IMG/VR virus record: IMGVR_UViG_3300048924_000226
Span: 1-23,506 of that record
Length of the DNA stretch: 23,506 nucleotides
Strand: one strand, 5' to 3'
Origin: a virus
Of this stretch, positions 2,616 through 23,341 are shown piece by piece. A program made the translations under genes and the position numbers. Under the pieces are notes generated by a model. That model was not told the origin of the DNA. It worked only from the letters and a program-made list of their open reading frames with translations, and ran no database searches. Position 1 is the first letter of the stretch. Every line of letters begins with the position of its first letter.

Positions 2616-3044
2616 CTATTCGTTGGGCAGGCCGGAGTAGTTGTGCCAGTAAACGCAGTCGCTGGCGTTTTCGAGCTGCACCCACATGCGGTTGGGCCGT
2701 TGGCTGCCAGCGCCATTGTTGGCATCGGCCAGCCAGCGGACGGACGGGTTACGGGACCAGGCGTTTGTCGTACCGGAGCCGCTGGTCGGGCGGCCGGAAC
2801 CACAGACAGCCTGCGCCGTGTTCTCAACGCAGACATTGTGGCCGAGCGACGGGTCGAATAAAGCGTAAAGCGTGCCGGAGACGATGGTAAAGCTCGTCGC
2901 CGTGGTTGTGCCGCAGAGGTAGCCGCCGTGGTTGTTAGGCGCGCGGATGGCCTCTTTCTTGATGTCCCAGCGATCAAGGGATTGGGCAGACAGGTTGCCC
3001 GCCGCCAGCAGGGCCAGCGCGGTCAGAGCGAGATATGTTTTCAT
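2616..3044 (-). CDS. Exported small phage protein with four cysteines
   Basis: A 142-residue protein. Of two in-frame ATGs (3059 and 3044) I prefer 3044: it follows GAAAGAAACCGGG, the same leader as in the fibre gene at 3533-4237, and gives a clean signal peptide. Residues 1-20 (basic MKT, hydrophobic LALTALALLAA, then NLSA|Q) form a Sec signal. The mature part begins QSLDRWDIKKEAIRAPNN and has four cysteines (LCGT, VCVE, VCGS, DCVY), an even number that would suit two disulphides. It is rich in Asn, Gly, Ser and aromatic residues, like fibre tips or adhesive domains. It lies last in the fibre cluster, just before the lysis genes. I do not recognise the family. Confidence 0.7.
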   Translation of the reverse strand: MKTYLALTALALLAAGNLSAQSLDRWDIKKEAIRAPNNHGGYLCGTTTATSFTIVSGTLYALFDPSLGHNVCVENTAQAVCGSGRPTSGSGTTNAWSRNPSVRWLADANNGAGSQRPNRMWVQLENASDCVYWHNYSGLPNE

Positions 3045-3062
3045 CCCGGTTTCTTTCATTGT

Positions 3063-3539
3063 TTAAAACACGCAGGTCGTTGCGCTTGCCGTGCCCACCC
3101 CAAGTAACGTGCCGAGGTTGAGCGAGGTCGAGACTAGAGCCTGATCGAGACGCCGGAACACGCCACCGGAACGGACGCAGACAACGCCAGAGGCCGTTTT
3201 CACGATGTCGCCGATGGTCGGGGTGATACCGGCCTGAGCTGTCGGTATGGTCAGGTTGTTCAACACGGACGCGCTGACCACCAGCAGGCCTTCGTTGGCG
3301 GTGCCGGGGTTCGATACGGTCGTGTTGCTGGACGTCATGATATTGCCGACCCCATCCTTATAGACCGTCGAATTAGGAACGGCCGGAGGTGTCGTTGTGA
3401 TCGACGTCGAGAAGGTCGTGCGGCTCGCGGTGAAGGACGCTCCAGTGGTCGTGAGGTTGGGCACCTCGTAGGTTTGCGCCGCGGCATCACCGCAGACGAT
3501 TGCCAGCGCCGTGGTGGCAAGGAGCAGGGCTTTTACCAT
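3063..3539 (-). CDS. Exported fibre-like phage protein
   Basis: A 158-residue protein starting at an ATG that overlaps the upstream stop (ATGGTAA), with GGAGG nine bases before it. Residues 1-21 form a signal peptide (MVKALLLATTALAIVCGDAAA|Q). The mature sequence is Ser/Thr-rich and strand-like (TTTGASFTASRTTFSTSITT), with no basic or hydrophobic core motif. It ends SLNLGTLLGVGTASATTCVF and has two cysteines in the mature part. The composition resembles trimeric fibre or adhesin shafts. It belongs to a run of three exported genes between tailspike and lysis cassette. No specific family recognised. Confidence 0.68.
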   Translation of the reverse strand: MVKALLLATTALAIVCGDAAAQTYEVPNLTTTGASFTASRTTFSTSITTTPPAVPNSTVYKDGVGNIMTSSNTTVSNPGTANEGLLVVSASVLNNLTIPTAQAGITPTIGDIVKTASGVVCVRSGGVFRRLDQALVSTSLNLGTLLGVGTASATTCVF

Positions 3540-4237
3540 ACTGCCGCGCCTCCGCTCGCATTCTGCCACGTGTTCGTCTTGCCATTGCAGTAGTTCGGTA
3601 TCGAGGAGCTGCTGAGAGCCATGGCACCCGCCGTTGTCGGCGAGACGCAGCTATAGGGGGCTGCGCCGCTCGTTCCGGGGCGAAGCACGACACTGCTGGC
3701 ACTGATGTTCGGCGCCGTTATGCCGCCGCCGACCTCCAATTGAATACCCGAAAGGGTTGCCGTCCCGATGCCTACGCTGGCGCTCACGCCACCGGCTGCA
3801 ACAAGCGCCGTACCGGCAGAGTTTTGGATTTGGAACTGGGAGGCGCCTGCCTGTCCCAGCTTAACGGCAGCGCCGTTGGGCGAAATCGGATAGATATAAG
3901 CCCGTGGCGCGGTGCCCGTTGCGATAAGAACGCCGGTAGCGGCGCTATTATCTGTTGCCGTGAATGTCGCGGGGGTGGGCGCGAGGCTGTAAGCGCCAAC
4001 CTGCAGAGCGGTCGCGCTGATGCTCGTTTGGCTCACGCCCGTGGCCGTGATGCCCGACCCCGAAACACCACCAAAGCTACCTGAATTGTTGTACTGGAGT
4101 TGCCCGTTCGACCCACCCGGCGTGGTCGGAGAGCTGGAACCGCCTGTCCCGCCCGTCGAGAACGCGTAGTTCGGCGGAATCACCTGCGCGCTCGCGGCGC
4201 TGGCGAGGAAGATGAGAGGGAGTATGAAGCGCTTCAA
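3533..4237 (-). CDS. Exported tail-fibre-like protein
   Basis: A 234-residue protein starting at TTG, preceded by GAAAGAAACTGCG; no ATG or GTG gives the intact signal peptide. Residues 1-17 form a Sec signal (MKRFILPLIFLASAASA|Q). The mature part has a Gly/Ser/Thr-rich segment and then GGSNGQLQYNNSGSFGG, a motif common near the start of phage tail-fibre domains. Repeated strand-forming stretches follow, with IGTATLSGIQLEVGGGI. The C-terminus has two cysteines and ends NTWQNASGGAAVW. A receptor-binding or fibre role is likely from the motif and the position after the tailspike. The signal peptide is unexpected for a virion protein assembled in the cytoplasm. Confidence 0.7.
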   Translation of the reverse strand: MKRFILPLIFLASAASAQVIPPNYAFSTGGTGGSSSPTTPGGSNGQLQYNNSGSFGGVSGSGITATGVSQTSISATALQVGAYSLAPTPATFTATDNSAATGVLIATGTAPRAYIYPISPNGAAVKLGQAGASQFQIQNSAGTALVAAGGVSASVGIGTATLSGIQLEVGGGITAPNISASSVVLRPGTSGAAPYSCVSPTTAGAMALSSSSIPNYCNGKTNTWQNASGGAAVW

Positions 4238-4255
4238 CGCAGTTTCTTTCGTTCG

Positions 4256-6124
4256 TTAAGTTCGACTGCAGGAGGCGTAGACCGTACCGGCCGCTACGCC
4301 GCTGATGGAGCCCGACGTCGGGTTGATGGGGCGGATTGAAACCGTGCCATCCGTCAGCACTTGGCCGACAAGGATCAGCCCTTGCAGATCCGAAGAGAAG
4401 CTGACCTCGACTTTATCGCCCACCTTGCAGCCGCTCACGGTCAGGGTTGTTGCCGTACCAGCAGTAGCCGCGGCAACGGTCGGAATCGTCCATGTCTTGC
4501 TACCGGAGTTGACGACCCGGCCGAGCTGGACGTCCGTGTTGCCGCTCTGCACGAGCGGTTGGGACGTCGCGACGCCCGCCACCATATACTTGCTCTGGTA
4601 GAGTCCGATCTGCGGCCGGACGGCACCAGCCAAGCGGAAAAGGTTGGTGGCAAGGGTGGTGGCGCGGTCGTCGATGCTCCGCACCATGCCAATCTGCATA
4701 TCGATCGGGCTGTCGAGATAGATGTTATCGAAGAAATTGGACGTGACCGGATCGTAGTTCACGCAGTTGTTGTACGCGTCCACTTGCGCGCAACTGAGAC
4801 CGTTGATGTTGCCGCCGGTGATCCCGCGCGTGCCGTTGTACTCCGAAATCAAATAAGACGAGCGAAGGTTTTTCACACCGTTGATCGTAATGCCGGCCAG
4901 CTTGTTGTTGCGGGCGCGGGCAGACACTGTAGCCCCATCCAGATATTCCGCAGCGGTATTGTTGCCGCTGCCGATCAGGACGCCGCCGCCGACCGTCGTA
5001 CCGGAGACATCGATCGTGTAGCTGCCGCCGACCACGTTCTTGCCGATCCATGCCGCGAACTGGTTGCTTGCGCCGACACAGCCGACCAGGCTCATGTTTA
5101 CGTGACAGTCAGTGACCCCGTAGGTGTTGTAGCTCGTGTCTTTACTGACAAAGAGGGCGCCGTTGCCCTTGGCACCGTCGATGAGGCCGTCCACGCGGCA
5201 GTTTTGGGCACCCGCCAGTTTCACCCCGGCGAAGGTGCCGTTGTAAGCCAGTACACCCGTAATCACGATGTCCGAGCAAACATCACCCTTCGGAACATAG
5301 GACACGATGCTGACCTGATCGTCCCCATTGCTGATGCAAAGCGGGTTGCTGATCTGCGCGCGGACGACGGGGCCGGTGAATGACGCGCCGGACAGAATGC
5401 CGTTGGAGGAGTGGATGCCGTCCGCCAGACTGCCGATCACGATAGGGCTGATGATGCGGGCGTTCGTGCATTTGACGAGGCAGAGGCCCGCGCCGGGGCT
5501 GTTGATGGACACCGGACGGTCCAGAACCACGTTGTCCGCGCCGTTGTACACGCAGATGCTGGGAATATTCGTGCGGGAAATGGCGGGATCGGAGCAGCGC
5601 ACACGGGCGTTGCTGACGATCACGTTGCTCACGCCGACCCGAAGGAAGCCCGCATTCTTGTTGTTGAAGATCAGCTCGGCGCCGGGCTCGAAATACAGGT
5701 TGACAGACTTCAGGATATCGAGCTTGGCAGTGGTACCCGCCAACAGGAACGGGCGAGCCGGGAAATAGAGGGTGTCGCCGTCATTCGCGGCAGCATAGGC
5801 CGCAAGGATCTTGGCGAGGTCGTCGGTCGTCCCGTCACCCTTCGCGCCCTTGTCGAGGACGTTGATGCAGTGACCGCTTTCCGAGAACCGGTATCCGAGC
5901 GGGATGGCCGTGTCCCCACCGTAAGCAATGACATTGAGGGCGGACGCATCCGCGATAATGGCATCAAGGTTAGCTTGTACCGCGACAGCCGCCTCTTGGG
6001 CGGTATTGGCCGTCTGGATCGCCTGATTGGCTGCGGCAATGATTTCCGAGGGATCGAATGCGGGCACGCCCGGCGTCACCGGAGGGCCATCCGGTTGAAG
6101 CCGAGGGTCATCGCGCAAGCTCAT
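4256..6124 (-). CDS. Right-handed beta-helix tailspike (pectate-lyase-3 type)
   Basis: A 622-residue protein. Residues 1-60 contain a Pro-rich start and an Ala/Gln-rich helix (AAANQAIQTANTAQEAAVAV), probably a trimeric coiled coil that attaches to the tail. The block INVLDKGAKGDGTTDD (88-103) is the classical start of Pectate_lyase_3/beta-helix tailspikes. The rest to about residue 500 shows solenoid-like rungs rich in Asn, Gly, Val and Ile. The last 100 residues are a Gly/Thr/Val-rich beta domain ending YASCSRT. Such spikes bind and often cleave host surface polysaccharide; the substrate cannot be read from the sequence. Unlike its neighbours it has no signal peptide. It lies between the ejection proteins and the exported fibre-like genes. 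Confidence 0.85.
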   Translation of the reverse strand: MSLRDDPRLQPDGPPVTPGVPAFDPSEIIAAANQAIQTANTAQEAAVAVQANLDAIIADASALNVIAYGGDTAIPLGYRFSESGHCINVLDKGAKGDGTTDDLAKILAAYAAANDGDTLYFPARPFLLAGTTAKLDILKSVNLYFEPGAELIFNNKNAGFLRVGVSNVIVSNARVRCSDPAISRTNIPSICVYNGADNVVLDRPVSINSPGAGLCLVKCTNARIISPIVIGSLADGIHSSNGILSGASFTGPVVRAQISNPLCISNGDDQVSIVSYVPKGDVCSDIVITGVLAYNGTFAGVKLAGAQNCRVDGLIDGAKGNGALFVSKDTSYNTYGVTDCHVNMSLVGCVGASNQFAAWIGKNVVGGSYTIDVSGTTVGGGVLIGSGNNTAAEYLDGATVSARARNNKLAGITINGVKNLRSSYLISEYNGTRGITGGNINGLSCAQVDAYNNCVNYDPVTSNFFDNIYLDSPIDMQIGMVRSIDDRATTLATNLFRLAGAVRPQIGLYQSKYMVAGVATSQPLVQSGNTDVQLGRVVNSGSKTWTIPTVAAATAGTATTLTVSGCKVGDKVEVSFSSDLQGLILVGQVLTDGTVSIRPINPTSGSISGVAAGTVYASCSRT

Positions 6125-6168
6125 GTGCCGTCAGCCTAACCCGCTTTCGGAAGCGCGTAAAACAAAAC

Positions 6169-8157
6169 TCATGACACGCGCGCTTTCCGTTCCGCCCAAG
6201 CCAGCACCTGCGCGGCGGTCTTGTTCTTCAACACGGTCGGATTGGCCTTCACCGCATCGGCGCCGACGATCCGGAAAGCCGGAGTGTCCGGCTTGGCCTT
6301 GGCAAGGCGGGCCGCAACCGGGCCATCGAGGAAATGCGAAAGGTAGATCATGCCGTTTGTGGGCTGAATACCACGCTTGGCAAGCAGCTTGCCGTTCTGG
6401 TCAGCGTACTTGGCGACCATGCGGCGGGAAATCGACGGATCATCCCGAAGGGCGAGGATCTCGCGGGCGCTCTTGCCCTCCGCTTCCGGCTCGCCTCTCA
6501 TGAGCCCCAGCCAAGTGCTCTTGATGAACTGCCCTGCCCCGCGCGCGCTGCTTCGCGGGTTCTGCGCGTCGGCCCGGCCGTTGCTCTCGACCGAGATAAT
6601 GCGATCGACCACTTTGTCGGAAACAGGCTCAACCCTGATAGGCTGGCGGACAGTCACCGGCTGGGGACTTGGCTTCGGCCCACTATCGTTCGCGGCGCCC
6701 GGCATCACAGCAGAAGCAAGACCGCCCGTTGCCGCTGGCGCCGTGAACCCAGCCCCCGCCGCCTTTGGCGCGACAAGTCCGGATAGTGTGCCGAGTGCGT
6801 CCTCGGCCTGCCCTCGCGTAATCGCCTGAGACGCATAGCGGGCACCGGTAGCGCCAGCCGTTACCAGCCCGCCCGTCGCGGCGTCACCCGCCAGAGCGGT
6901 CGCACCACCCGTGACAAGCGGAATGACGTTGCCTGCCGGGTTCTTCAGGTCAATCCCTGCGCGCCCTGCGAAGCGAAGCCAGCTCTCGACACCGCCCTTC
7001 TGCGAAAGGCGCTTGAGTGCTTCCTTTTCGGCATCATTGAAGCCGCGCATGGCCTTCTTGTTGAGCAAGAGCAACCGCACTTGGTTCTTCAGAACGCCGG
7101 GCGTGTCGCCATAGCGTTCGACCAGGCTGCGGACTTTGTCGAAGCGGCGGTACTTGCCCCACTCCTGCCTCGCCTGTTTGAGCAAAGGGGCTGCGTCCGC
7201 ACCGCCAGAGGCAATATTCGACGCACCCAGCCGCTCAATATGAGAATCCAACGTGTCGATCAGGTTGAGCGCCTTCATCGCGTCGGGATTGATCTTGCCA
7301 GTCCCGTCCGTTCCCGTGGAAACGACATCGTTCAGCAGTTGCCGGTATTGGTCGGCCTCTTCAAGGCTTAGGGTCTTGCCTTTGAGGGCCTTAAGGTCTT
7401 GGAGGACGCTCAGGGTATTGCGGTGGAGGTCCGCATTGGTCTTTCCGCCCTCGCTGACCGCCTTTTCGAGGTCCGCAACCATCGCGTTGACGGTCTTCTT
7501 ATTAATAACCGCGCCGGCTTCGCGCATTTTCGTGTAGGTCGCTTGGGATTGCGCCTTGAGGCCATCTCCGATTTCCTGCCAAGCTTCCGGGCTCTTCGCG
7601 ATGGCGCCCTTGGCAACATCTTTTCCGGCCCGCGCCACCGCGCCGACGACCTCAGCACCTTTTTCAAGCGCCGGTGATGCCACAACGCCTGTTCCTAGGC
7701 CGATTAGGCCCTGCTCGGCACGGTCTTTCAGATTGCTCTGCTCCGAGGTGGCGCGGGTGAAGCCTTCCGCTGCGCCAGAGACACCAGCAAGAGCCGCGCG
7801 GCTAGCACGCGTCGCCGCCCCACCGGGAATTGCCAGTGCCGGAGCAACATCGCCGACGAAATTTCCGACTTCACCCGCCGTCCCGAGGCTCGCGACGTCG
7901 CGCTCAATCTTCTTTTTGACCTTGCTCGCCGCCTCACTGACGCCCTTGGCGCCGACGAGATCGGCACCCGCTTGGATCACACCAACGCCGCGTCCCGTCA
8001 GGCCGGCGCCAAACCCGATGAACGCCCGAGCAGCCTCGGGAAGATCAGATTGCTTGTCATCGCTCGGGGACGCCTCCTCTAGTTCGAACCCGTCCGGCAA
8101 TGGTGGCACCGGCTGGCTGTCCAGCTGGAAACCATCGGGAAGGGGCGGGATGTCCAT
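6169..8157 (-). CDS. Large ejection/internal virion protein with C-terminal lytic transglycosylase
   Basis: A 662-residue protein. The ATG at 8155-8157 overlaps the upstream TAA by one base (TAATG). The N-terminus contains two copies of PPLPDGFxL separated by a short linker. The central 400 residues are Ala/Gly/Lys-rich with amphipathic helices and several glycine-rich segments, as in proteins injected with the DNA. From about residue 516 there is an SLT-like domain: VVDRIISVESNG with the likely catalytic Glu at about 524, then GAGQFIKSTW and, near the end, MIYLSHFLDGP. This domain would open the peptidoglycan locally during DNA entry, as in T7 gp16 and related proteins. It is the last of three coupled ejection genes and would be carried in the virion. 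Confidence 0.82.
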   Translation of the reverse strand: MDIPPLPDGFQLDSQPVPPLPDGFELEEASPSDDKQSDLPEAARAFIGFGAGLTGRGVGVIQAGADLVGAKGVSEAASKVKKKIERDVASLGTAGEVGNFVGDVAPALAIPGGAATRASRAALAGVSGAAEGFTRATSEQSNLKDRAEQGLIGLGTGVVASPALEKGAEVVGAVARAGKDVAKGAIAKSPEAWQEIGDGLKAQSQATYTKMREAGAVINKKTVNAMVADLEKAVSEGGKTNADLHRNTLSVLQDLKALKGKTLSLEEADQYRQLLNDVVSTGTDGTGKINPDAMKALNLIDTLDSHIERLGASNIASGGADAAPLLKQARQEWGKYRRFDKVRSLVERYGDTPGVLKNQVRLLLLNKKAMRGFNDAEKEALKRLSQKGGVESWLRFAGRAGIDLKNPAGNVIPLVTGGATALAGDAATGGLVTAGATGARYASQAITRGQAEDALGTLSGLVAPKAAGAGFTAPAATGGLASAVMPGAANDSGPKPSPQPVTVRQPIRVEPVSDKVVDRIISVESNGRADAQNPRSSARGAGQFIKSTWLGLMRGEPEAEGKSAREILALRDDPSISRRMVAKYADQNGKLLAKRGIQPTNGMIYLSHFLDGPVAARLAKAKPDTPAFRIVGADAVKANPTVLKNKTAAQVLAWAERKARVS

Positions 8158-9494
8158 TATTGGGCGCGCACCCATTGACCGTTCTGCAGGATCAACCGTT
8201 CGCCCGTCTTCGGATTGCGGGCAGTCACGGGCGCGGAAGCGGCCGGGGATGCTTGCGTCGCGGACTGGCCTTCATAGGCCGTGTAGTCCATTGGCTCGTG
8301 GCCGAATTCCGCCCGCAACTGGTCGTTCTGCAGTTTCTTCAGTTCCGCCGAGCGGGCGTTGATACCGCGCAGCTCGGTGAGGCGGTCTTTGACGGCCTCG
8401 GTATCGAAGGGCGCGGCAAGGATGGCATCGGCGGCGCGCTGAGCGTCACCTTCCGTCTGCACGCCCTTGGCCAGAAGCAGGCTGTCATTGACCATCTTCT
8501 TGAGGTTGGACTGGTAGTTGGCCAGCGAGCGGCTTTGCGGAGTGCTGTGGCCAACATAGTTGGCAGCGGCAGAGACTGTGCGGTTAGCAAGGTCGGTTTT
8601 GAGCTGTCCGGAATCAATGTCTGCAAGGATCTTGTCGATGTTCGAGTTGGTTTGGCCGATCGTGCCGATGGCATCCAGCGCTTCCTGCTGCAGTTTTACC
8701 GCTGGCGCAGGCAACGGCTTCGGTTGCGGATTGGTCTTCGCATCAGCCTGCGCGCGGTAATTCGCGGCTTGCGCCTTTTCGGTATCGACCTGCGCATCCT
8801 TTAGCTCAAGAGTCTTATCAGCCAGCGCATTCTCTTGCCGGGTCGCGTAGCGCGCTTGATAAGCAGCCGGAGCGTAGGCTTTCAGGAGCGTATCAACCGG
8901 AACCGCCTCGCCGGACACAAGATTGCCCTGCCCGTCTTTCCCATACGGGATCATCACGTCCACACCGTTCATTTGGGTGAAGCGGGCGCCCTCGACCGGC
9001 GCGCCAAGGGTCGTGGACAGACGCTTGGCGCTTTCCGGATTCGAGGCCAGCCAGTTGCGGATACCGCTTTCGTCCCCAGCCGCGAGCTGGTCAATGGACT
9101 GAGCAAGCTGCGCGCCGGATACGGTTGCTTCCTGATGCGCGGCCAGCATCTGTTGCACTTCCGCCTGGTGCGTTTCGAGGTTCGCTTTATATTGAAGGAG
9201 CTGGTCGAGTTGCGCCTGCTTCTGGTCACGAATGGCCTGCGCTTTTTCAGACTTGCCAGACGCCACCGCGCCGGTCACACCCTTGAGGATGGCCGTGAGC
9301 GGCGTGAGCTGCCCCGGTTGGAACGCATCGGAAATCCCCTGCCACCGTTTGGCTGATACGTCTTCGCCGTTCGTGGCTTGTGCCGCCGTTTGGAGGGCAC
9401 CGGTAGGCAAATTATCGCCGCTGACCAGCTTGGCGAGGGATGCGAGACCGGAAAGCTCCGGCGTGCTGCCGACCGTGGTTGATAGTCCAGCCAT
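8157..9494 (-). CDS. Ejection/internal virion protein
   Basis: A 445-residue protein with its ATG at 9492-9494, overlapping the upstream stop (TAATG), preceded by GGGAGG eight bases before. It is predominantly helical, rich in Ala, Gln, Leu and Lys, with coiled-coil-like stretches (IRDQKQAQLDQLLQYKANLE; LELKDAQVDTEKAQAANYRA). The C-terminus ends in NPKTGERLILQNGQWVRAQ, a short motif I associate with phage DNA-ejection proteins. There is no signal peptide or membrane span. Its position between a smaller Ala/Gly-rich protein and the transglycosylase-bearing protein suits the middle member of a three-protein ejection set (P22 gp20- or T7 gp15-like role). The family assignment is by context. Confidence 0.7.
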   Translation of the reverse strand: MAGLSTTVGSTPELSGLASLAKLVSGDNLPTGALQTAAQATNGEDVSAKRWQGISDAFQPGQLTPLTAILKGVTGAVASGKSEKAQAIRDQKQAQLDQLLQYKANLETHQAEVQQMLAAHQEATVSGAQLAQSIDQLAAGDESGIRNWLASNPESAKRLSTTLGAPVEGARFTQMNGVDVMIPYGKDGQGNLVSGEAVPVDTLLKAYAPAAYQARYATRQENALADKTLELKDAQVDTEKAQAANYRAQADAKTNPQPKPLPAPAVKLQQEALDAIGTIGQTNSNIDKILADIDSGQLKTDLANRTVSAAANYVGHSTPQSRSLANYQSNLKKMVNDSLLLAKGVQTEGDAQRAADAILAAPFDTEAVKDRLTELRGINARSAELKKLQNDQLRAEFGHEPMDYTAYEGQSATQASPAASAPVTARNPKTGERLILQNGQWVRAQ

Positions 9495-10372
9495 TACGCC
9501 ATCCTCCCTGTATTCCAATAGACTTGATTGCCGAGGCCGGAGCCATAGTTTGCCCATCCGCCAGATGTCCCGGCCTTTGCCGCCGCACTACCGCCTGACG
9601 CCATGCTGAACAGACCGCCGCCGGTAAGGGCAAGGCTTGCGCCGCCGGTGAACGGAGCCGCAGCGATACCTGCGATGGTGGCAAGGTTATTGAAACCGGC
9701 CTGACTAGCTGCCGCTTTCGCTGCGTTGTTGGCACCGATCGTAGCGGCAACGCTGTTGTTGTAGTTCTGCTGGTTCTGCTGTTGAGAAAGGCCTGAGTTC
9801 ACAAGGCCAGCCAGTGAGTTAAGTTGGGTACCTTGCTGACCGTTCAGCGCCCCCGAGGCAAGGCTGTAAAGACTGCCTTGGCGGTTCAGCTCCTGCGAAC
9901 GCGCGTCCTGCTCGATGCCGGACATATCGCGAGCAAGCTGCGCCTTTTGATCCATGACCGTTCCGGCGCGCGCGATGCGGGCTTGGGCTCCGGCCGTGCT
10001 ATCAGCCTGACCATACCGGGCAAGCAGCTTTTCCTCGGCGTTGCCCGTCGCGACCGCGTTGTCGGTGATCGCCTTCGATTGCGTGGCCTGATAGTCCGTC
10101 AGGTACTGTTTCAGCCACGGGATGTCATCGACATTGTAATTGTTGGAGAGCTTGGTGATGTAGTCCAGCGAGCTTTGCTGGATCTGCTTGAAGGTATCCT
10201 GAAGCGCTTGGTCTTCAGCGGAGAGAGGCAGCGCGCTCCGAACGATTGTATAGGTACCGTCGGGCTGTTTGACGCGCTCAACCTTCGTTCCAGCAACGTC
10301 GTCAATTTGCGTCTCAAACTGAGCTTGTTCGGGGATAGGAGTCAGCGCTGCTTTTGGTTTACTGAGGCTCAC
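9494..10372 (-). CDS. Ejection/internal virion protein (P22 gp7- or T7 gp14-like role)
   Basis: A 292-residue protein with a GTG start (10370-10372), overlapping the end of the upstream acetyltransferase-like gene by 14 bases. The Shine-Dalgarno sequence is weak, so it may depend on coupling. The N-terminal third has a conserved-looking PDGTYTIVRSALP segment. The middle is Gln/Ala-rich and helical (QQQNQQNYNNS). The C-terminal part has a hydrophobic glycine/alanine segment (about 225-260: LATIAGIAAAPFTGG, LALTGGGLFSMASGG), as in small ejection proteins that enter the host membrane. It is followed by the two other ejection proteins through TAATG junctions. The role is inferred from order and composition. 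Confidence 0.65.
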   Translation of the reverse strand: MSLSKPKAALTPIPEQAQFETQIDDVAGTKVERVKQPDGTYTIVRSALPLSAEDQALQDTFKQIQQSSLDYITKLSNNYNVDDIPWLKQYLTDYQATQSKAITDNAVATGNAEEKLLARYGQADSTAGAQARIARAGTVMDQKAQLARDMSGIEQDARSQELNRQGSLYSLASGALNGQQGTQLNSLAGLVNSGLSQQQNQQNYNNSVAATIGANNAAKAAASQAGFNNLATIAGIAAAPFTGGASLALTGGGLFSMASGGSAAAKAGTSGGWANYGSGLGNQVYWNTGRMA

Positions 10373-10769
10373 TCATCGAGACTTTCCTTATAAGCGAATA
10401 ATAACTGATGCCGTCACGCTGGCAATACATTTGAAACCCATGCTTGCGCAGGAAGCGTCCGCACACCGGATTGTCGGTGGTGGCAGCTATCTGCGGATAG
10501 GACGCAAACGCGAAGCTGGCGATGGCGTTGAATGCCTCATCATCCAGCCAGTGACCGCGTTTTTCCGGTACGATCCACACGTTGCCCCAGCCGCAGTTCT
10601 TCCAATCCGGTTGCTCGCGAAGAGCGACAATCCCAATCGGCTTGCCGTCATCAAGGACAAGGACAGCGAACTGGCCGCCGCCCCAAATCTGGCAGAACTC
10701 CCGGGCTTCCTCATGCTGAAGCAGGCCCGTGTAGGCCAGCATGTCGAGGGTTGCGGGAATGAGCTTCAC
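10359..10769 (-). CDS. GNAT-like acetyltransferase
   Basis: A 136-residue protein starting at GTG, overlapping the upstream TAG by one base. It looks like a short GNAT fold: FAVLVLDDGKPIGIVALRE (strand pair), then NVWIVPEKRGHWLDDEAFNAI (strand, loop and helix region where acetyl-CoA binds, although the usual Q/RxxGxG/A is degenerate here) and ATTDNPVCGRFLRKHGFQ, the typical N..s..f..k.GF ending. Similar short GNAT-like genes are seen among structural genes of several podoviruses; their substrate is unknown. Possibilities are modification of a virion or host protein, or a non-catalytic structural role. The degenerate acetyl-CoA loop lowers confidence in activity. Confidence 0.65.
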   Translation of the reverse strand: MKLIPATLDMLAYTGLLQHEEAREFCQIWGGGQFAVLVLDDGKPIGIVALREQPDWKNCGWGNVWIVPEKRGHWLDDEAFNAIASFAFASYPQIAATTDNPVCGRFLRKHGFQMYCQRDGISYYSLIRKVSMSEPQ

Positions 10770-11764
10770 TAGAACAGCTCAGCCGTGATGTTGGATGGAG
10801 CTGCGCCCTGGTACTGGCCGTAGATCGTGGCCGTGCCTGTTCCGCTGCGGAACTGCACCGAATACGTCACCGAGGTCGTCACGGCCGGGCTATCGACGTA
10901 CACGGTATGAAATACGCCATTGATGCCGTCGTAAGTGTTCGCCGAGCCGTTTGCGGTCAGGATCGTGCCGAGGTTGCTCCATGTCTGGAGGACCGTCGCG
11001 CCCCTAAGCAGCCGCACATCATAGCGCCCGGTGTTACCGCCGCCCGAGGGCTGGTTGTAGAGGGTCTGCGCCACATCGATCTTGACCTTCTGGCCCACGA
11101 GCGAGGGCGTGATCGTTACCGCCAGACCGGAGGGCGTCCATGTCGCGGTACTGTCCGACGTTTGCGCCGTGGCGGTGGCGAACGCTATACAGCCGGGACA
11201 GGCAATCGAGCTGGCGCTCACCGTGCCGCTGATCGTCGCCGTACCGCTCACGGTAAGGCTGGTGAATGTCGGGCTCAGGTTCTGCGTTACGGAGGTGACG
11301 ATGCCTGCGGTGTTCACCGTGATCGTCGGCAGCGAATAGGTGCCGGAGACGCCAAGGTTCGGGAAGCTGCTGGTATCGAGCAGCCCGAAGACGGCCGCGC
11401 CGGTGCCGTTGGCCTTCATCACCTGCCCGGCCGCCGCGAGCCCGGAGCTGATGGAGGTCGGCGAAATCAAGCCCCAGTAGGTGTTGGCACCGTCATTCAG
11501 CAGCGCCTTACCGGTTTGGCCGATGACGCTCGGCGGAACACGCGCTTCGAGGCTGTTCAGGCCCTGAAAGGCCTTGTTGATATCACCGTCCACCTTGGCG
11601 GACGAGATCGCAACGCCGTTGGCGCGGTCGATCTGGTACTTGGTGGTGTTCACCGAGTGGTTGGTCGGCGTGTAGGCGCCGGCGGGGCGCTCCCACACGG
11701 CCGCATTGGCCGCGCCGGTTGCCAGAATGGCGGCTACAAGCGCGCCGAAAATGCTGGTTTTCAT
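10769..11764 (-). CDS. Exported tail-fibre-like protein with CPGC motif
   Basis: A 331-residue protein whose ATG follows GGGAG. Residues 1-21 are a clear Sec signal (MKTSIFGALVAAILATGAANA|A). After WERPAGAYTPTNHSVNTTKY comes a helix (DGDINKAFQGLNSLEAR), then Ser/Thr/Gly-rich strand repeats (TFTSLTVSGTATISGTVSAS) typical of fibre shafts. The C-terminal beta domain (KIDVAQTLYNQPSGGGNTGR; YDVRLLRGATVLQTWSNLGT) resembles fibre tip domains. The only two mature cysteines are in CPGC, which could form a disulphide. It lies directly after the nozzle gene with a 3-base gap, where a fibre or tail-needle gene is expected. The signal peptide is the odd feature, shared with the three genes at 2616-4237. 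Confidence 0.68.
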   Translation of the reverse strand: MKTSIFGALVAAILATGAANAAVWERPAGAYTPTNHSVNTTKYQIDRANGVAISSAKVDGDINKAFQGLNSLEARVPPSVIGQTGKALLNDGANTYWGLISPTSISSGLAAAGQVMKANGTGAAVFGLLDTSSFPNLGVSGTYSLPTITVNTAGIVTSVTQNLSPTFTSLTVSGTATISGTVSASSIACPGCIAFATATAQTSDSTATWTPSGLAVTITPSLVGQKVKIDVAQTLYNQPSGGGNTGRYDVRLLRGATVLQTWSNLGTILTANGSANTYDGINGVFHTVYVDSPAVTTSVTYSVQFRSGTGTATIYGQYQGAAPSNITAELF

Positions 11765-11767
11765 GAT

Positions 11768-13585
11768 CTATCTCCCTATTGGTCTTATTCCGAGCACGTT
11801 CACCGGCCCGGTTTTCGTCGCGAAGCTCAGGCGAACGCAGAATGCCTTGTCGGCAAGGAATTTGTCGGTGACGACGGGATTGTTGGTACCCGCATCCCAC
11901 GTCGCGTCGTCCCAGTGCGCGTCGTCCCACTGCGAACCGCCGCCCACGACCTCGACCTGCGTCGAGACCACGTTCAGCTCCTTGAAGTCGATCATGCGAT
12001 CGAGCGTGAAGGTGACGTTCGCGGTGTCTTCGAGCAGGATCTCCCACGCCTTGTTGGCCCAGCGCGAGTTGCGGGACAGCCAAGGCGTCCACCACGTCAC
12101 GACGATCTCGTTTCCGTCGTCGCTGTAGTCCTCGCCGACCAGATCGTCGGTGCCATTCGCATACATGAAGGCTTGCAGGCCGCGCAGGATCATCAGCCGG
12201 TGATCGGTCAGGGGCAAGAAGCCCGCGGCATCCCCGAAGTAGCCGTCGAATTTCGACCAGCCCTTCGAGTTCTCGTTCAGCACGTAGACCATCAGGCTCA
12301 CATCATCGAGCTTATACCCGTAGATTCCGTCGCGCTGGTAATAGAAGCTGCGGGCCTTGCGGTACGCCTCGTCATCAGCGAGCAGCGTGCGGATCTTCTC
12401 GGCAAACTCGCTGTCCTGCGTGCTGCCGATGTCGGTTGTGACCTCGATTCCGTCCGTCTGCACCTGCACGGAGAGCGTCCGCAGGCCATACGGGGTTACG
12501 ATCGCCTCATCGTTCGGCATCGGCTGGCGGAGTTTCTGGTGGACGAGACCGATTTCCAGCGTCTTCACCGGAATGAACCCGCCGATCTCGCCCGGGTCGT
12601 AGCCCTGCCACAGGTACGTTTTCTGGCGGCCATAGAAGACCATGGCCCCATTGAAACTGCCGATCGCCAGCAGTTCATCGAAGATGCCTGCTTTGTTCTG
12701 TATGTTGATATAGGCGAGTGATTGCGTGGAGGTGTCCGCCCCCTGGTCGAACCACGAGTTCTCGTTATTGGACGTAACCGTGTAAAAAACCTTCATGCTT
12801 TCCGACCCGCGATACACCTTCGGACGGGAGACCCCACCGCTCAGCGCCCACAGGATGTCGTTGGCGGTCATGATGAAGGAGAATGGCGGCGGATTGTCGA
12901 AATACTCGACCGTCGTCAGGTCTTCGTCGGCGGCCGGGAATGGATTGCCGGACACCATGACGGTCAGCGTGTCACCGACTAGTGACGCCGTGGTAATCGT
13001 GGCCTCGACAATGCCGGACGTCGCAAAGGTCAGGCGAACCTTGCGGCCCGTCAGGTAGTCGTTTCGGCCCGGCACCGGCTTGAGGCTGAAGCTGGCATCC
13101 GAAACCCACTCCAGATCGCCGGATAACCGATCCTCGACATACTCCCCGAGGTCGGTGCAGGTCGTGCCGTTGTAAGCGAAGTTGACGTCCACACCGTTGA
13201 AGAAGATGAGTTTACCGTTGAATTGCGTGGCGCCGACCAGCCCGAGCGAGGAAAGCCCGGACTTGATGACGGCATAGGTGTTCAGGGCCTCGTCATACCG
13301 GTACAGGGCATTATCATCCCCGAGGGCAATGACCTCGATCGTTCCGTCCGCCCGGCGATACTCCCATCCGTCTATCAGGTTGACCGTGTGTTCCGGCCCC
13401 TTTTTCCCAACCCCGAATCGGAGAGCGCCGGAGCCAGCCTTACGGCGGTTCGGCAGCATGTTGGTTAGGGTTCGTGCGTATTGAGAGGCAGAAAGCAACG
13501 TGGAGCTGACTGACGAGTTCGCCAACTGGCGCGGGAACAGCGTCAGCAAGCTCCCGTCGAAAATGCCCGGCCGCGTCGCTACCAT
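11768..13585 (-). CDS. P22 gp10-like tail nozzle / stabilisation protein
   Basis: A 605-residue protein; its ATG overlaps the upstream TAA by one base. The sequence is almost entirely beta strand, with repeated blade-like units (FNGKLIFFNGVDVNFAYNG; LWALSGGVSRPKVYRGS; LAIGSFNGAMVFYGRQKTYL) expected for the beta-propeller of podoviral nozzle proteins (P22 gp10; role comparable to T7 gp12). Near the C-terminus, from about residue 553, is the WDDAHWDDATWDAG repeat that I associate with this family. The protein would close the head through the adaptor encoded just upstream and form the lower tail tube. Length is somewhat above P22 gp10 (about 470 residues). Confidence 0.82.
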   Translation of the reverse strand: MVATRPGIFDGSLLTLFPRQLANSSVSSTLLSASQYARTLTNMLPNRRKAGSGALRFGVGKKGPEHTVNLIDGWEYRRADGTIEVIALGDDNALYRYDEALNTYAVIKSGLSSLGLVGATQFNGKLIFFNGVDVNFAYNGTTCTDLGEYVEDRLSGDLEWVSDASFSLKPVPGRNDYLTGRKVRLTFATSGIVEATITTASLVGDTLTVMVSGNPFPAADEDLTTVEYFDNPPPFSFIMTANDILWALSGGVSRPKVYRGSESMKVFYTVTSNNENSWFDQGADTSTQSLAYINIQNKAGIFDELLAIGSFNGAMVFYGRQKTYLWQGYDPGEIGGFIPVKTLEIGLVHQKLRQPMPNDEAIVTPYGLRTLSVQVQTDGIEVTTDIGSTQDSEFAEKIRTLLADDEAYRKARSFYYQRDGIYGYKLDDVSLMVYVLNENSKGWSKFDGYFGDAAGFLPLTDHRLMILRGLQAFMYANGTDDLVGEDYSDDGNEIVVTWWTPWLSRNSRWANKAWEILLEDTANVTFTLDRMIDFKELNVVSTQVEVVGGGSQWDDAHWDDATWDAGTNNPVVTDKFLADKAFCVRLSFATKTGPVNVLGIRPIGR

Positions 13586-20568: not shown

Positions 20569-20913
20569 ATGCGCCAGAAGCTTCGTTATACTGCCCTTCT
20601 CTTGCCGCTGCTTTCCCTGTCTGCATGCTCCTCTGAAGCGTCAGCTGACGATATCGTCGGCAAATACACGTTCGATGAAGGGCATGGCACGATGTCCATG
20701 GAGTTCAAAGCAGATGGAACCGCTCCCGTCATCGCAGGCGGTGACGTCCTGAACACGTGGGAATGGAAGAAAACCGCGCCGGGCAAGCTCAGCCTGAAGA
20801 GCCCGAAGAGCAAAGATGTCACTTGCGATTACGAGAGCACCGAAAGCTCCCTCACTACCAAGAACTGCTCCGACCCCACGTTGAACCTCGTCTATACCAA
20901 GGTACCGAAATAA
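20569..20913 (+). CDS. Small lipoprotein (accessory gene)
   Basis: A 114-residue protein; the ATG follows GAAGG six bases upstream. Residues 1-20 are a lipoprotein signal (MRQKLRYTALLLPLLSLSAC) with lipobox LSAC and Cys20, and Ser at the next position predicts outer-membrane sorting. The mature part is a single small beta-rich domain (GKYTFDEGHGTMSMEFKADG; TWEWKKTAPGKLSLKS) with two further cysteines that could pair. It is transcribed opposite to the late operon and followed by a hairpin, as expected for an independently expressed accessory (moron) gene. Some phage lipoproteins block receptors against superinfection; that role here is only a guess. Confidence 0.72.
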   Translation: MRQKLRYTALLLPLLSLSACSSEASADDIVGKYTFDEGHGTMSMEFKADGTAPVIAGGDVLNTWEWKKTAPGKLSLKSPKSKDVTCDYESTESSLTTKNCSDPTLNLVYTKVPK

Positions 20914-20959: not shown

Positions 20960-21361
20960 CTATTTGGAGCGGCAGGGCCACGCCTCTTCGAGAGAGCGCG
21001 CAAACAGGCTTTCCGAGGATTCCGCCCGTCTGGCGGGGTTCTCCTGCAGGTACTTGCAGAAAACGTCCGCGATCTGGCCTGCGCTGGCGTTGTCAGGCAG
21101 GCAGAAGCCGCGCGAGATGAACACGCCGAGGATCGCCTTCGGGGCCACCAGCTCGGCTGGGGTCTTGCCCTCGCGTTCGAACGTGGCTTCGACCGCGCCC
21201 TTGTCAGTCTCCCACTTGTCGATCCACCCGGCGATATAGCCGTGGACGAACGTCATGTTGTTCTGCTTGCACTGGCTGTGGACGAAATTGCCGTCCCAAA
21301 AGCCCGCATACGCGTTTGAAACCGAAGCGAGCAGCGCAACCGCCGCAAGATATTTCCGCAT
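20960..21361 (-). CDS. Secreted Rap1a/Tai-like protein
   Basis: A 133-residue protein. The ATG at 21359-21361 gives a complete signal peptide (MRKYLAAVALLASVSNAYA|G); the longer open frame upstream is not protein-like. The mature part has the Rap1a/Tai pattern: FVHGYIAGWIDKW (38-50), FCLPDNASAGQIADVFCKYL (86-105) and a C-terminal LEEAWPC. Four cysteines (31, 87, 102, 130) suit two disulphides. Rap1a and Tai proteins of type VI secretion systems are periplasmic immunity proteins that bind peptidoglycan amidases; the wider family is common in Proteobacteria with unknown targets. Here there is no T6SS gene nearby, so a periplasmic protective or exclusion role is inferred from the phage context only. 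Confidence 0.78.
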   Translation of the reverse strand: MRKYLAAVALLASVSNAYAGFWDGNFVHSQCKQNNMTFVHGYIAGWIDKWETDKGAVEATFEREGKTPAELVAPKAILGVFISRGFCLPDNASAGQIADVFCKYLQENPARRAESSESLFARSLEEAWPCRSK

Positions 21362-21476
21362 GGCCAGTCCCCAACCTGATTCAGCCGACCATAGCAAATA
21401 TCCGCTGGAGAACCAGCGCCCTCCACTTCCCAATCCACCGGGATTCGGGCAGTCATAGGTTGAGCTGGAGTTTGCC

Positions 21477-22388
21477 ATGGCGCCGAGGAAGCCGAAGAAG
21501 GATATGGACGGGGACGACGATATGCTTGAGGGAGCCGCACTATCCGCTGGAAAGGCCTTGGAGAAGGCTGGCGTGTGGAAGGCGCTGCTTCTCCCCGCCT
21601 CCAAGGTGCTTGGCGATTTCATGGGCAAGCGCACCCAGGAATGGGTGGACGGACTGGACGAGCGGCGCGCCAAGAACGTCGAAGCGCATTATGCGAAGAT
21701 GAAGACCATCGAGCATATCGAACCGCCGAAGAACGGTCCGACCGAACGGCAGTTCACGGCGCTGGTAGAATGGACAGCTGAGGCGCAGACGGTTGATCCC
21801 GAGGCTGAGCCGGAGCTTGCGGCATTGTGGCAGTCCCTGCTCGGTGACATCTACCGCAACGATCCTTACGCAGACGAGCTGGCGAGTATCCTCAAGAACA
21901 TGACGAGGGCTGATGCGCGGATGTTCCTTAACGGACGTTACCACCGCAAGCCCTTTATTCTCTTTCGCGAGATGGACCGCGACGACATCGGGCCGCCCTA
22001 TATCGAACGTTTTAAGCAATGGGGGCTCATAAGCCGCAGGATGGCGGTCGAGCGGATCACACTGATCTTGGCCGTCAGTTTTGTGGGCGGTACATCGGGG
22101 CTTCTTGCAAGTCGAGCGCCCTACTTCAAAGCCTTGTTATTTCCTTCGGGCGAATCCGCATCCGGGCTGTGGACGTGGTCGCTAGCCGTCACGATAGCCT
22201 CTCTCCTCGCCATCTTCATGTCCACCTTCATTATGGACATTGCCCGGATGGAGCTGACCCCGCTAGGCAGGAGGCTTTACTACAGTGGGCGGCGTTACCT
22301 TGACGCGCCCACGCCGCCGATAGCTCAGCCTGAGCCGCCCGAACCGGCCAAGCCCGCGCCGAAACGGGGACGGCCCAAGAAAGTCTGA
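21477..22388 (+). CDS. DUF4393/Abi-alpha-like protein with two membrane spans
   Basis: A 303-residue protein; the ATG follows GGAG six bases upstream. Residues 17-80 contain the helical start typical of Abi-alpha proteins (KALLLPASKVLGDFMGKRTQ, then an Arg/Lys/Asn-rich helix). The core PELAALWQSLLGDIYRNDPY (112-131) with ELASILKNMTRADARMFL is the clear DUF4393 block (xxLWaxLLaxxxdp...ILxxmtxxdA). Two hydrophobic segments follow (about 193-212 and 233-253), then ELTPLGRRLY and a Pro/Lys-rich tail ending PKRGRPKKV, which resembles an AT-hook core. DUF4393 is linked to abortive infection by family name; the mechanism is unknown. It converges with the TIR gene with a 2-base gap. Confidence 0.7.
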   Translation: MAPRKPKKDMDGDDDMLEGAALSAGKALEKAGVWKALLLPASKVLGDFMGKRTQEWVDGLDERRAKNVEAHYAKMKTIEHIEPPKNGPTERQFTALVEWTAEAQTVDPEAEPELAALWQSLLGDIYRNDPYADELASILKNMTRADARMFLNGRYHRKPFILFREMDRDDIGPPYIERFKQWGLISRRMAVERITLILAVSFVGGTSGLLASRAPYFKALLFPSGESASGLWTWSLAVTIASLLAIFMSTFIMDIARMELTPLGRRLYYSGRRYLDAPTPPIAQPEPPEPAKPAPKRGRPKKV

Positions 22389-22390
22389 CT

Positions 22391-23341
22391 TCACTCCGCC
22401 TTCTTGCCGGACCTTACTGCGCTGACCAACTGAGTGATAAGCGAATAGATCTGCGGGTCGATCTGCGACGGATCAAGCGTCGAGAAGGTCGAGTTGCGGT
22501 CGATATTCCAATGCTGGAATGCTTCCTTGACTTCCGAAGGCGTAAGCCTGTCGCCGTAGGCCTTGAGGAAGAATTTGCCGAACTGGATCGCGTGGATGCG
22601 GTCGGAGGACTTCAGGGACTCGCTCATGTACGACTTGCCGAGCGAGTAGGCGTATCTAGCGAGCGCCGCCAGAACCCCAACCATTACAATATTCAGGATC
22701 AGTAGCGAAATCGGCAGGATATAGCTCGCTTGTGCGACCGTATCGCCAGCCGTGATGACGGTGTGAATGGAGAACGCCGTCAAGCCGAGCACGGACAAAA
22801 GGAAAGCCACACCGGCAAAGTACCAGAAAATCGCCCATTTTCGGTGGTGATTTTCATAGGCTTGCTGCTGGGCAATTGCATCGGTTACGAAGTCTGAGAC
22901 GTCCTGTTTGACTTCTTCCAGGCGCTCAGTCTTTTGGCGTTTCTCCCTCTCGAAGAACTCAATACTGGTCAGTGCGTGTTGCACTGCCATATCTACGCGA
23001 TCGGCTCGAATAAAGCGAAGTCCCCGCATATCTGGTGCGAGGACAGTGTCGCTTGTACCGATCAGGATCGGTAATATGAGCATGGCTTCTTTGCCGTAAC
23101 GCCCCATAACATACCCAAGCTCGGAGATAAGGGGCGTGCCTTGAGGTGTGTTCGATGAAAAGAGCGGAATATAGACCTCCGCGTCGCGCATTGGTCCTTT
23201 GAAATCGCTTACCATCTGAGCAGTTGGACGCGGCCATACATTGTCATAGGCGACAACGTGGCCGTACTCGGCGAGCGATTTAGCCAACTCATCGGCGATC
23301 ATTCTATCGACTTTATCGAAGCTCAGATAAATTCTCGCCAC
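22391..23341 (-). CDS. TIR-domain protein with two membrane spans
   Basis: A 316-residue protein with a GTG start and GGGGGAT upstream. Residues 1-125 form a TIR-like domain: IYLSFDKVDRMIADELAKSL at the start, EVYIPLFSSNTPQG in the middle, and LISELGYVMGRYG, with Glu74 in the position of the catalytic glutamate of NAD-cleaving TIR enzymes. A charged coiled coil (about 125-165) links to two membrane spans (about 170-192 and 205-228). The C-terminal 85 residues are a cytoplasmic helical domain (RIHAIQFGKFFLKAYG, SEVKEAFQHWNI) that I do not recognise. TIR domains fused to membrane spans occur as effectors in bacterial immunity (for example in CBASS-type systems). No sensor or cyclase gene is visible in the window, so activation is unknown. 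Confidence 0.72.
   Translation of the reverse strand: MARIYLSFDKVDRMIADELAKSLAEYGHVVAYDNVWPRPTAQMVSDFKGPMRDAEVYIPLFSSNTPQGTPLISELGYVMGRYGKEAMLILPILIGTSDTVLAPDMRGLRFIRADRVDMAVQHALTSIEFFEREKRQKTERLEEVKQDVSDFVTDAIAQQQAYENHHRKWAIFWYFAGVAFLLSVLGLTAFSIHTVITAGDTVAQASYILPISLLILNIVMVGVLAALARYAYSLGKSYMSESLKSSDRIHAIQFGKFFLKAYGDRLTPSEVKEAFQHWNIDRNSTFSTLDPSQIDPQIYSLITQLVSAVRSGKKAE

Follow-up and report, generated by a model that had tools for sequence, protein, structure and literature searches.

The usual view of tailed phages is that their virion proteins are both produced and put together in the cytoplasm, and to our knowledge T7 gp17 has no export signal. Tail proteins that join finished heads in vitro are known, the P22 tailspike being one. 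In filamentous phages, the virion proteins pIII and pVIII are synthesized with Sec signal peptides. For the tail fibres of tailed phages, the literature searched gave no report of Sec signals, most subscription journals being outside the scope of that search. In Gram-negative bacteria with the DsbA system, even cysteine counts are favoured among exported proteins (PMC7678975).

The window, the whole 23.5-kb IMG/VR virus record analysed here, has a late region of the podovirus type on its minus strand, and several of its late proteins appear to be made for export. The order of genes is terminase, portal, scaffold-like, capsid, TtpA-like, TtpB-like, the 331-aa protein and an acetyltransferase, followed by three ejection proteins, a pectate-lyase-like tailspike, the 234-, 158- and 147-aa proteins, a holin-like gene, and a DUF5675 gene, with names assigned by position and inference where a gene had no family match (Table 1). 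There was no megablast match between the window and 50,697 phage records. Five relatives were identified: two IMG/VR contigs (L021 and L022) with TtpB proteins 73-74% identical to that of the window, a Bradyrhizobium MAG contig (L028) with a TtpB 49% identical, and two loci (L025 and L035) with the N-terminal fibre module in common with the window. In all five, a homolog of the 331-aa protein with a signal peptide was encoded directly after TtpB. No cultured member of this fibre group was found, and a search for the fibre in Bradyrhizobium genomes and the wider order (several hundred related genomes) returned only L028 and one short marginal match. In place of the pectate-lyase-like tailspike, L021 and L022 encode a 749-aa protein (L021:17510-19759, L022:17301-19550), which in L022 matched a GH5 cellulase domain (PF00150, 1.4e-29). 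At 22391-23341 on the minus strand, the window encodes a protein with hydrophobic, membrane-like segments and a weak, below-cut-off match to a TIR domain (PF13676, 3.9e-5), for which PADLOC gave nothing of note.

Table 1. Coordinates of the late-region features compared in the window. A slash marks predicted cleavage sites.
Feature	Position	Strand	Remarks
147-aa protein, predicted signal MKETGMKTYLALTALALLAAGNLSA/QS, four mature cysteines	2616..3059	-	signal and cysteines kept in L021 and L022
158-aa Ser/Thr-rich protein, predicted signal MVKALLLATTALAIVCGDAAA/QT, two mature cysteines	3063..3539	-	
234-aa fibre-like protein, predicted signal MKRFILPLIFLASAASA/QV, GGSNGQLQYNN motif, two mature cysteines	3533..4237	-	TTG start, weak ribosome-binding site
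Pectate-lyase-like tailspike, 622 aa, no signal (contrast)	4256..6124	-	PF12708, 6.9e-7
Three ejection/internal virion proteins, no signal and no cysteine (contrast)	6169..10372	-	
331-aa protein, predicted modular tail fibre: signal (1-21), conserved N-terminal module (22-100), variable tip; two mature cysteines	10769..11764	-	
Conserved N-terminal module of the 331-aa protein, AVWERPAGAYTPTNHSVNTTKYQ..., presumed virion-attachment part	11464..11701	-	64-87% identity to five homologs
Predicted signal peptide of the 331-aa protein, MKTSIFGALVAAILATGAANA	11702..11764	-	start 3 nt past TtpB stop; AGGGAGA ribosome-binding site
Tail nozzle (TtpB-like) protein	11768..13585	-	weak similarity to tail tubular protein of Megaira phage

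In the first-pass annotation, classical Sec signal peptides were assigned to the 147-, 158-, 234- and 331-aa proteins. A rule-based finder and inspection bore this out, with all reading frames and N-termini as claimed. The predicted cleavage falls at A/Q in the three smaller proteins and at MKTSIFGALVAAILATGAANA/AV in the 331-aa protein, and the mature cysteine counts were also confirmed, as was the contrast under the signal rules with the neighboring tailspike and ejection proteins. For the 158-aa protein the start is an ATG at 3539 with a GGAGG motif upstream, the 168-aa open reading frame listed earlier being the version with a GTG start at 3569. A positive n-region, a hydrophobic core and small residues at -3 and -1, the features of Sec signals cut by signal peptidase I, were found on inspection in four of four window proteins and six of six fibre homologs. 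The finder was our own rule set, whose calls on control sequences came to about 1% for shuffled N-termini and 0.9% for internal windows. It chose a different cut for some proteins and missed the L025 signal, and it called none of the other window genes at or near their longest start. Signals were conserved in all homologs of the 331-aa protein (6/6), the 147-aa protein (3/3) and the 234-aa-like proteins (3/3). A lipobox with cysteine at +1 was absent from all four window proteins, and the L028 protein has a cysteine near the cut and no standard lipobox. In three distantly related cultured phages (POI1126, BcepIL02 and Itty13), the rules made one marginal call among the structural proteins (a tail fibre); a small BcepIL02 protein annotated as sec-signal-containing is the exception among those three phages.

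Two more exported-looking proteins are encoded elsewhere in the window. One, absent from the earlier annotation and the fifth such protein, has a Rap1a-type immunity domain (20960-21673, minus strand; PF18602, 1.7e-14) and a signal-like N-terminus, MRKYLAAVALLASVSNAYA, whose start codon is internal and lies over 100 codons inside the open reading frame. The other is a small protein (20569-20913, plus strand) with a lipoprotein-type signal, MRQKLRYTALLLPLLSLSAC.

The position of the 331-aa gene bears on whether these signals are real. Several of the starts are GTG or TTG, and the window gene has a GTG codon at residue 23, so that the signals might be an artefact of wrong start codons, the true start lying after the hydrophobic part. 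However, in all six phages the fibre gene begins 3-4 nt past the TtpB stop, with ATG, GTG or TTG, and in all six a purine-rich ribosome-binding site (AGGRAGRTAR) is fixed inside the C-terminal codons of TtpB. The genes differ in length by whole codons, and the six have no start codon in common downstream of the signal. For the 331-aa gene the artefact was rejected on the conserved spacing and ribosome-binding site, and as an account of the signals in general it is very improbable. In the window, the ribosome-binding site (11768-11780) falls within the last TtpB-like codons (RPIGR-stop). Comparison of the N-termini of homologs, a check that had been suggested with the original observation, found no member of the window fibre family that kept the body and started after the signal.

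The signal of the 331-aa protein has also evolved differently from the rest of it. Among the six fibre homologs, pairwise identity averaged 31% across the signal and 78% over the first 60 mature residues. Composition was kept and sequence was free, the pattern in which a cleaved signal evolves. The 147-aa family showed the reverse pattern, its signal being 68% identical versus 47% for the mature part, in which four cysteines are invariant.

All four window proteins have an even number of mature cysteines, as expected of disulfide-bonded exported proteins. Among curated signal proteins, the mature cysteine count was even in 24, odd in 1 (the 427-aa protein of L035) and zero in 3, and among the other genes of the same loci it was even in 35, odd in 39 and zero in 36. 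Because the curated list was picked by hand and homologs are not independent in these counts, equal weight is given to an automated selection from 18 loci, in which the even:odd ratio was 20:6 for signal proteins versus 74:79 for the others (Fisher p=0.006), a weaker result than the curated one. Of the six odd automated cases, two (L003, 971 aa; L041, 729 aa) came from a wrongly placed cut and two lay outside tail regions. Odd counts are left in two signal-bearing phage proteins, the 427-aa one of L035 and the 332-aa one of L040. The excess of even counts makes oxidative folding a well supported prediction. Export of the four window proteins by the Sec pathway is likewise predicted with good support, since the signals are conserved yet diverging, the start codon is fixed and even cysteine counts are in excess. 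Hydrophobic segments are common in infection proteins, and the N-terminus might instead escape cleavage and serve the virion, in assembly or at infection, as an anchor that is hydrophobic or membrane-active; the AxA-type sites, the conserved mature start, the fast divergence of the signal and the excess of even cysteines fit cleavage and export better, which makes such an anchor quite improbable.

The mature part of the 331-aa protein has the layout of a tail fibre. Its conserved N-terminal module had no relatives in cultured phages or in the PDB. The C-termini that follow this module have been exchanged: the L028 tip matched the Phage Tail Collar domain (PF07484, 4.2e-19) and the T4 short tail fibre gp12 (1ocy, 7.9e-5), the L025 tip matched a Gp53-like C-terminal fibre domain (PF21882, 3.8e-11), the L035 tip aligned with that of L028 and was very similar, and the window fibre's own tip had a weak match to a pelagiphage protein only. 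Known fibre domains thus occur in homologs that share the N-terminal module (L028 and L025), and the gene lies in the tail module. Because a conserved base, exchanged tips and a gene adjacent to the nozzle gene make up the layout of tail fibres, the 331-aa protein is predicted to be a modular tail fibre. AlphaFold2 models of the mature 331-aa and 147-aa proteins had pLDDT values of 33 and 40, too low for the models to serve as evidence.

Additional signal-bearing proteins were found in other phages. L041 is a relative of L003 and unrelated to the window phage. It encodes a 400-aa tail-region protein in which the segment behind the signal matches the solved structure of a tailspike head-binding domain (7eeq_A, 3.8e-9). 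In cultured phages with a 7eeq-type domain, the domain begins within about 15 residues of the N-terminus and there is no signal; all readable cultured relatives of the L041 module lacked one, so spikes of this kind can in general do without export. Since signal-less homologs of the domain exist, the signal in L041 appears to be an addition to a known virion-attachment domain. Signal-less tailspikes with the same head-binding module (complete ones with cysteine) were evenly divided, with 6 even and 6 odd counts. Apparent signal-bearing homologs in cultured Vibrio phages were rejected, as their alignments had entered the preceding gene and the tailspikes begin at the module. L003 and L041 encode several more signal-bearing proteins in the tail region.

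In L035, a signal-bearing 427-aa tail-region protein (L035:15536-16819) has a GDSL-like lipase domain (7e-10) and one cysteine. A single open frame of 851 aa in L028 (L028:17989-20544) combines an S74 chaperone domain (4e-13) with a signal-like internal stretch, MQEQQKKIDTLIRLLVALLITTLLLCASSAFA, and with a part resembling a fibre; it is possibly two genes that are fused or overlap in frame. In three loci (L025:7052-7423, L028:8934-9317, L041:1575-2321) a gene lying a short way past the capsid gene encodes a signal peptide, and its product could be an exported head-surface protein.

The first-pass annotation described all four window proteins as fibre-like. This holds for the 331-aa protein, whose homologs have fibre domains, and probably for the 234-aa protein, which is probably another tail fibre; the 147- and 158-aa proteins have no match to a known tail-fibre domain. 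The GGSNGQLQYNN motif of the 234-aa protein recurs in unrelated phages, in fibre-like proteins of which some have signals (L002, L003) and many lack them (L005-L020). The counterparts of the 234-aa protein in L021 and L022 have signals. No counterpart of the 158-aa protein was seen in L021 or L022 and it had no significant Pfam or PHROG match, and the 147-aa protein had no match in Pfam, PHROG or PDB. Phage-encoded exported proteins are common, and the lack of known relatives of these two proteins in the family libraries would suit morons, secreted proteins that the phage carries and that are no part of the virion, for example matrix or host-modifying proteins. The 331-aa gene, however, is tightly coupled to structural genes and has been conserved alongside them throughout the group, and its homologs have tail-fibre tips, so little credence is given to this explanation.

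Starting from the signal peptide, fixed start, conservation, modular tips and cysteine parity observed for the fibre, the following route is proposed, with a probability of roughly 0.55. As the structural operon is translated, the 331-aa fibre would be secreted through the host Sec pathway, signal peptidase I would cut the signal at the AxA site, and the mature fibre would acquire its fold and its disulfide bonds in the periplasm. Separately, filled heads with their nozzle would be built in the cytoplasm. At lysis the pool of fibres would meet the pool of heads, and the conserved N-terminal module would dock on the tail, presumably at the nozzle. We infer that the fibre is attached to the virion because of the fibre tips, the position in the operon and the parallel in L041, and the attachment would take place at or after lysis because the fibre is outside the inner membrane and the heads are inside.

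Export and three possible roles, as receptor shields, decoys or late-attached fibres, had been suggested at the outset. The suggestion of export stands, and a late-attached fibre is the best fit for the 331-aa protein because of its structural operon beside the nozzle gene, its kept N-terminal module with swapped tips, and the L041 parallel. Decoy or shield roles may apply, above all to the small 147- and 158-aa proteins. Extended to the fibre-like proteins as a whole, such roles would have exported proteins act off the virion, binding or masking receptors at the cell surface or in the medium and so blocking superinfection and re-adsorption of progeny to debris. The signals and even cysteines demand export alone, and the 147- and 158-aa genes, whose products lack fibre domains, adjoin the holin-like gene. 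However, in six of six phages the 331-aa gene adjoins the nozzle gene within the structural operon, its conserved N-terminal module and swapped tips match the build of virion-attached fibres, and the exported L041 protein has a head-binding domain known from virions, all of which makes off-virion action unlikely for this group.

If late attachment of a secreted fibre is correct, exported fibres would explain how phages use disulfide-bonded receptor-binding proteins, fibre attachment would be a post-lysis step, and free fibres would meet other cells before lysis. For annotation, a virion protein is not ruled out by a signal peptide. More broadly, some tailed phages might complete their virions outside the cytoplasm: receptor-binding fibres and perhaps a head-surface protein would be secreted, undergo oxidation in the periplasm and be added to finished heads only at lysis; this generalization is tentative, at somewhat under even odds.

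Compared with known systems, the fibres resemble T4-type short tail fibres and Collar proteins (PF07484) in the tip of the L028 homolog and the similar tip of L035, but differ from them in having an N-terminal signal and a different N-terminal module. Bradyrhizobium collar proteins with a resolvable frame had no signal, many loci being resolved only to other frames. The exported L041 protein resembles the Pam1-type head-binding tailspikes (7eeq), with the domain directly behind its signal, whereas the tailspikes of PBR31, Pam1, BA3, X14 and others start at the domain without a signal; this domain is absent from the window's own fibre. The order TtpA, TtpB, fibre, acetyltransferase, ejection proteins is shared with a Megaira phage, in which the tail tubular annotation is of the T7 type. 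However, the syntenic Megaira phage fibres lack signals and are not detectably homologous to the window fibre, homology being unsupported at an hhalign probability of 0.9%. Filamentous phages differ in assembling at the inner membrane, while the window belongs to a tailed phage with terminase, portal and an icosahedral-head gene set. The window proteins resemble the DsbA substrates of Gram-negative bacteria in combining a signal peptide with even mature cysteines; they differ from these in being phage late proteins, the oxidation of which is predicted.
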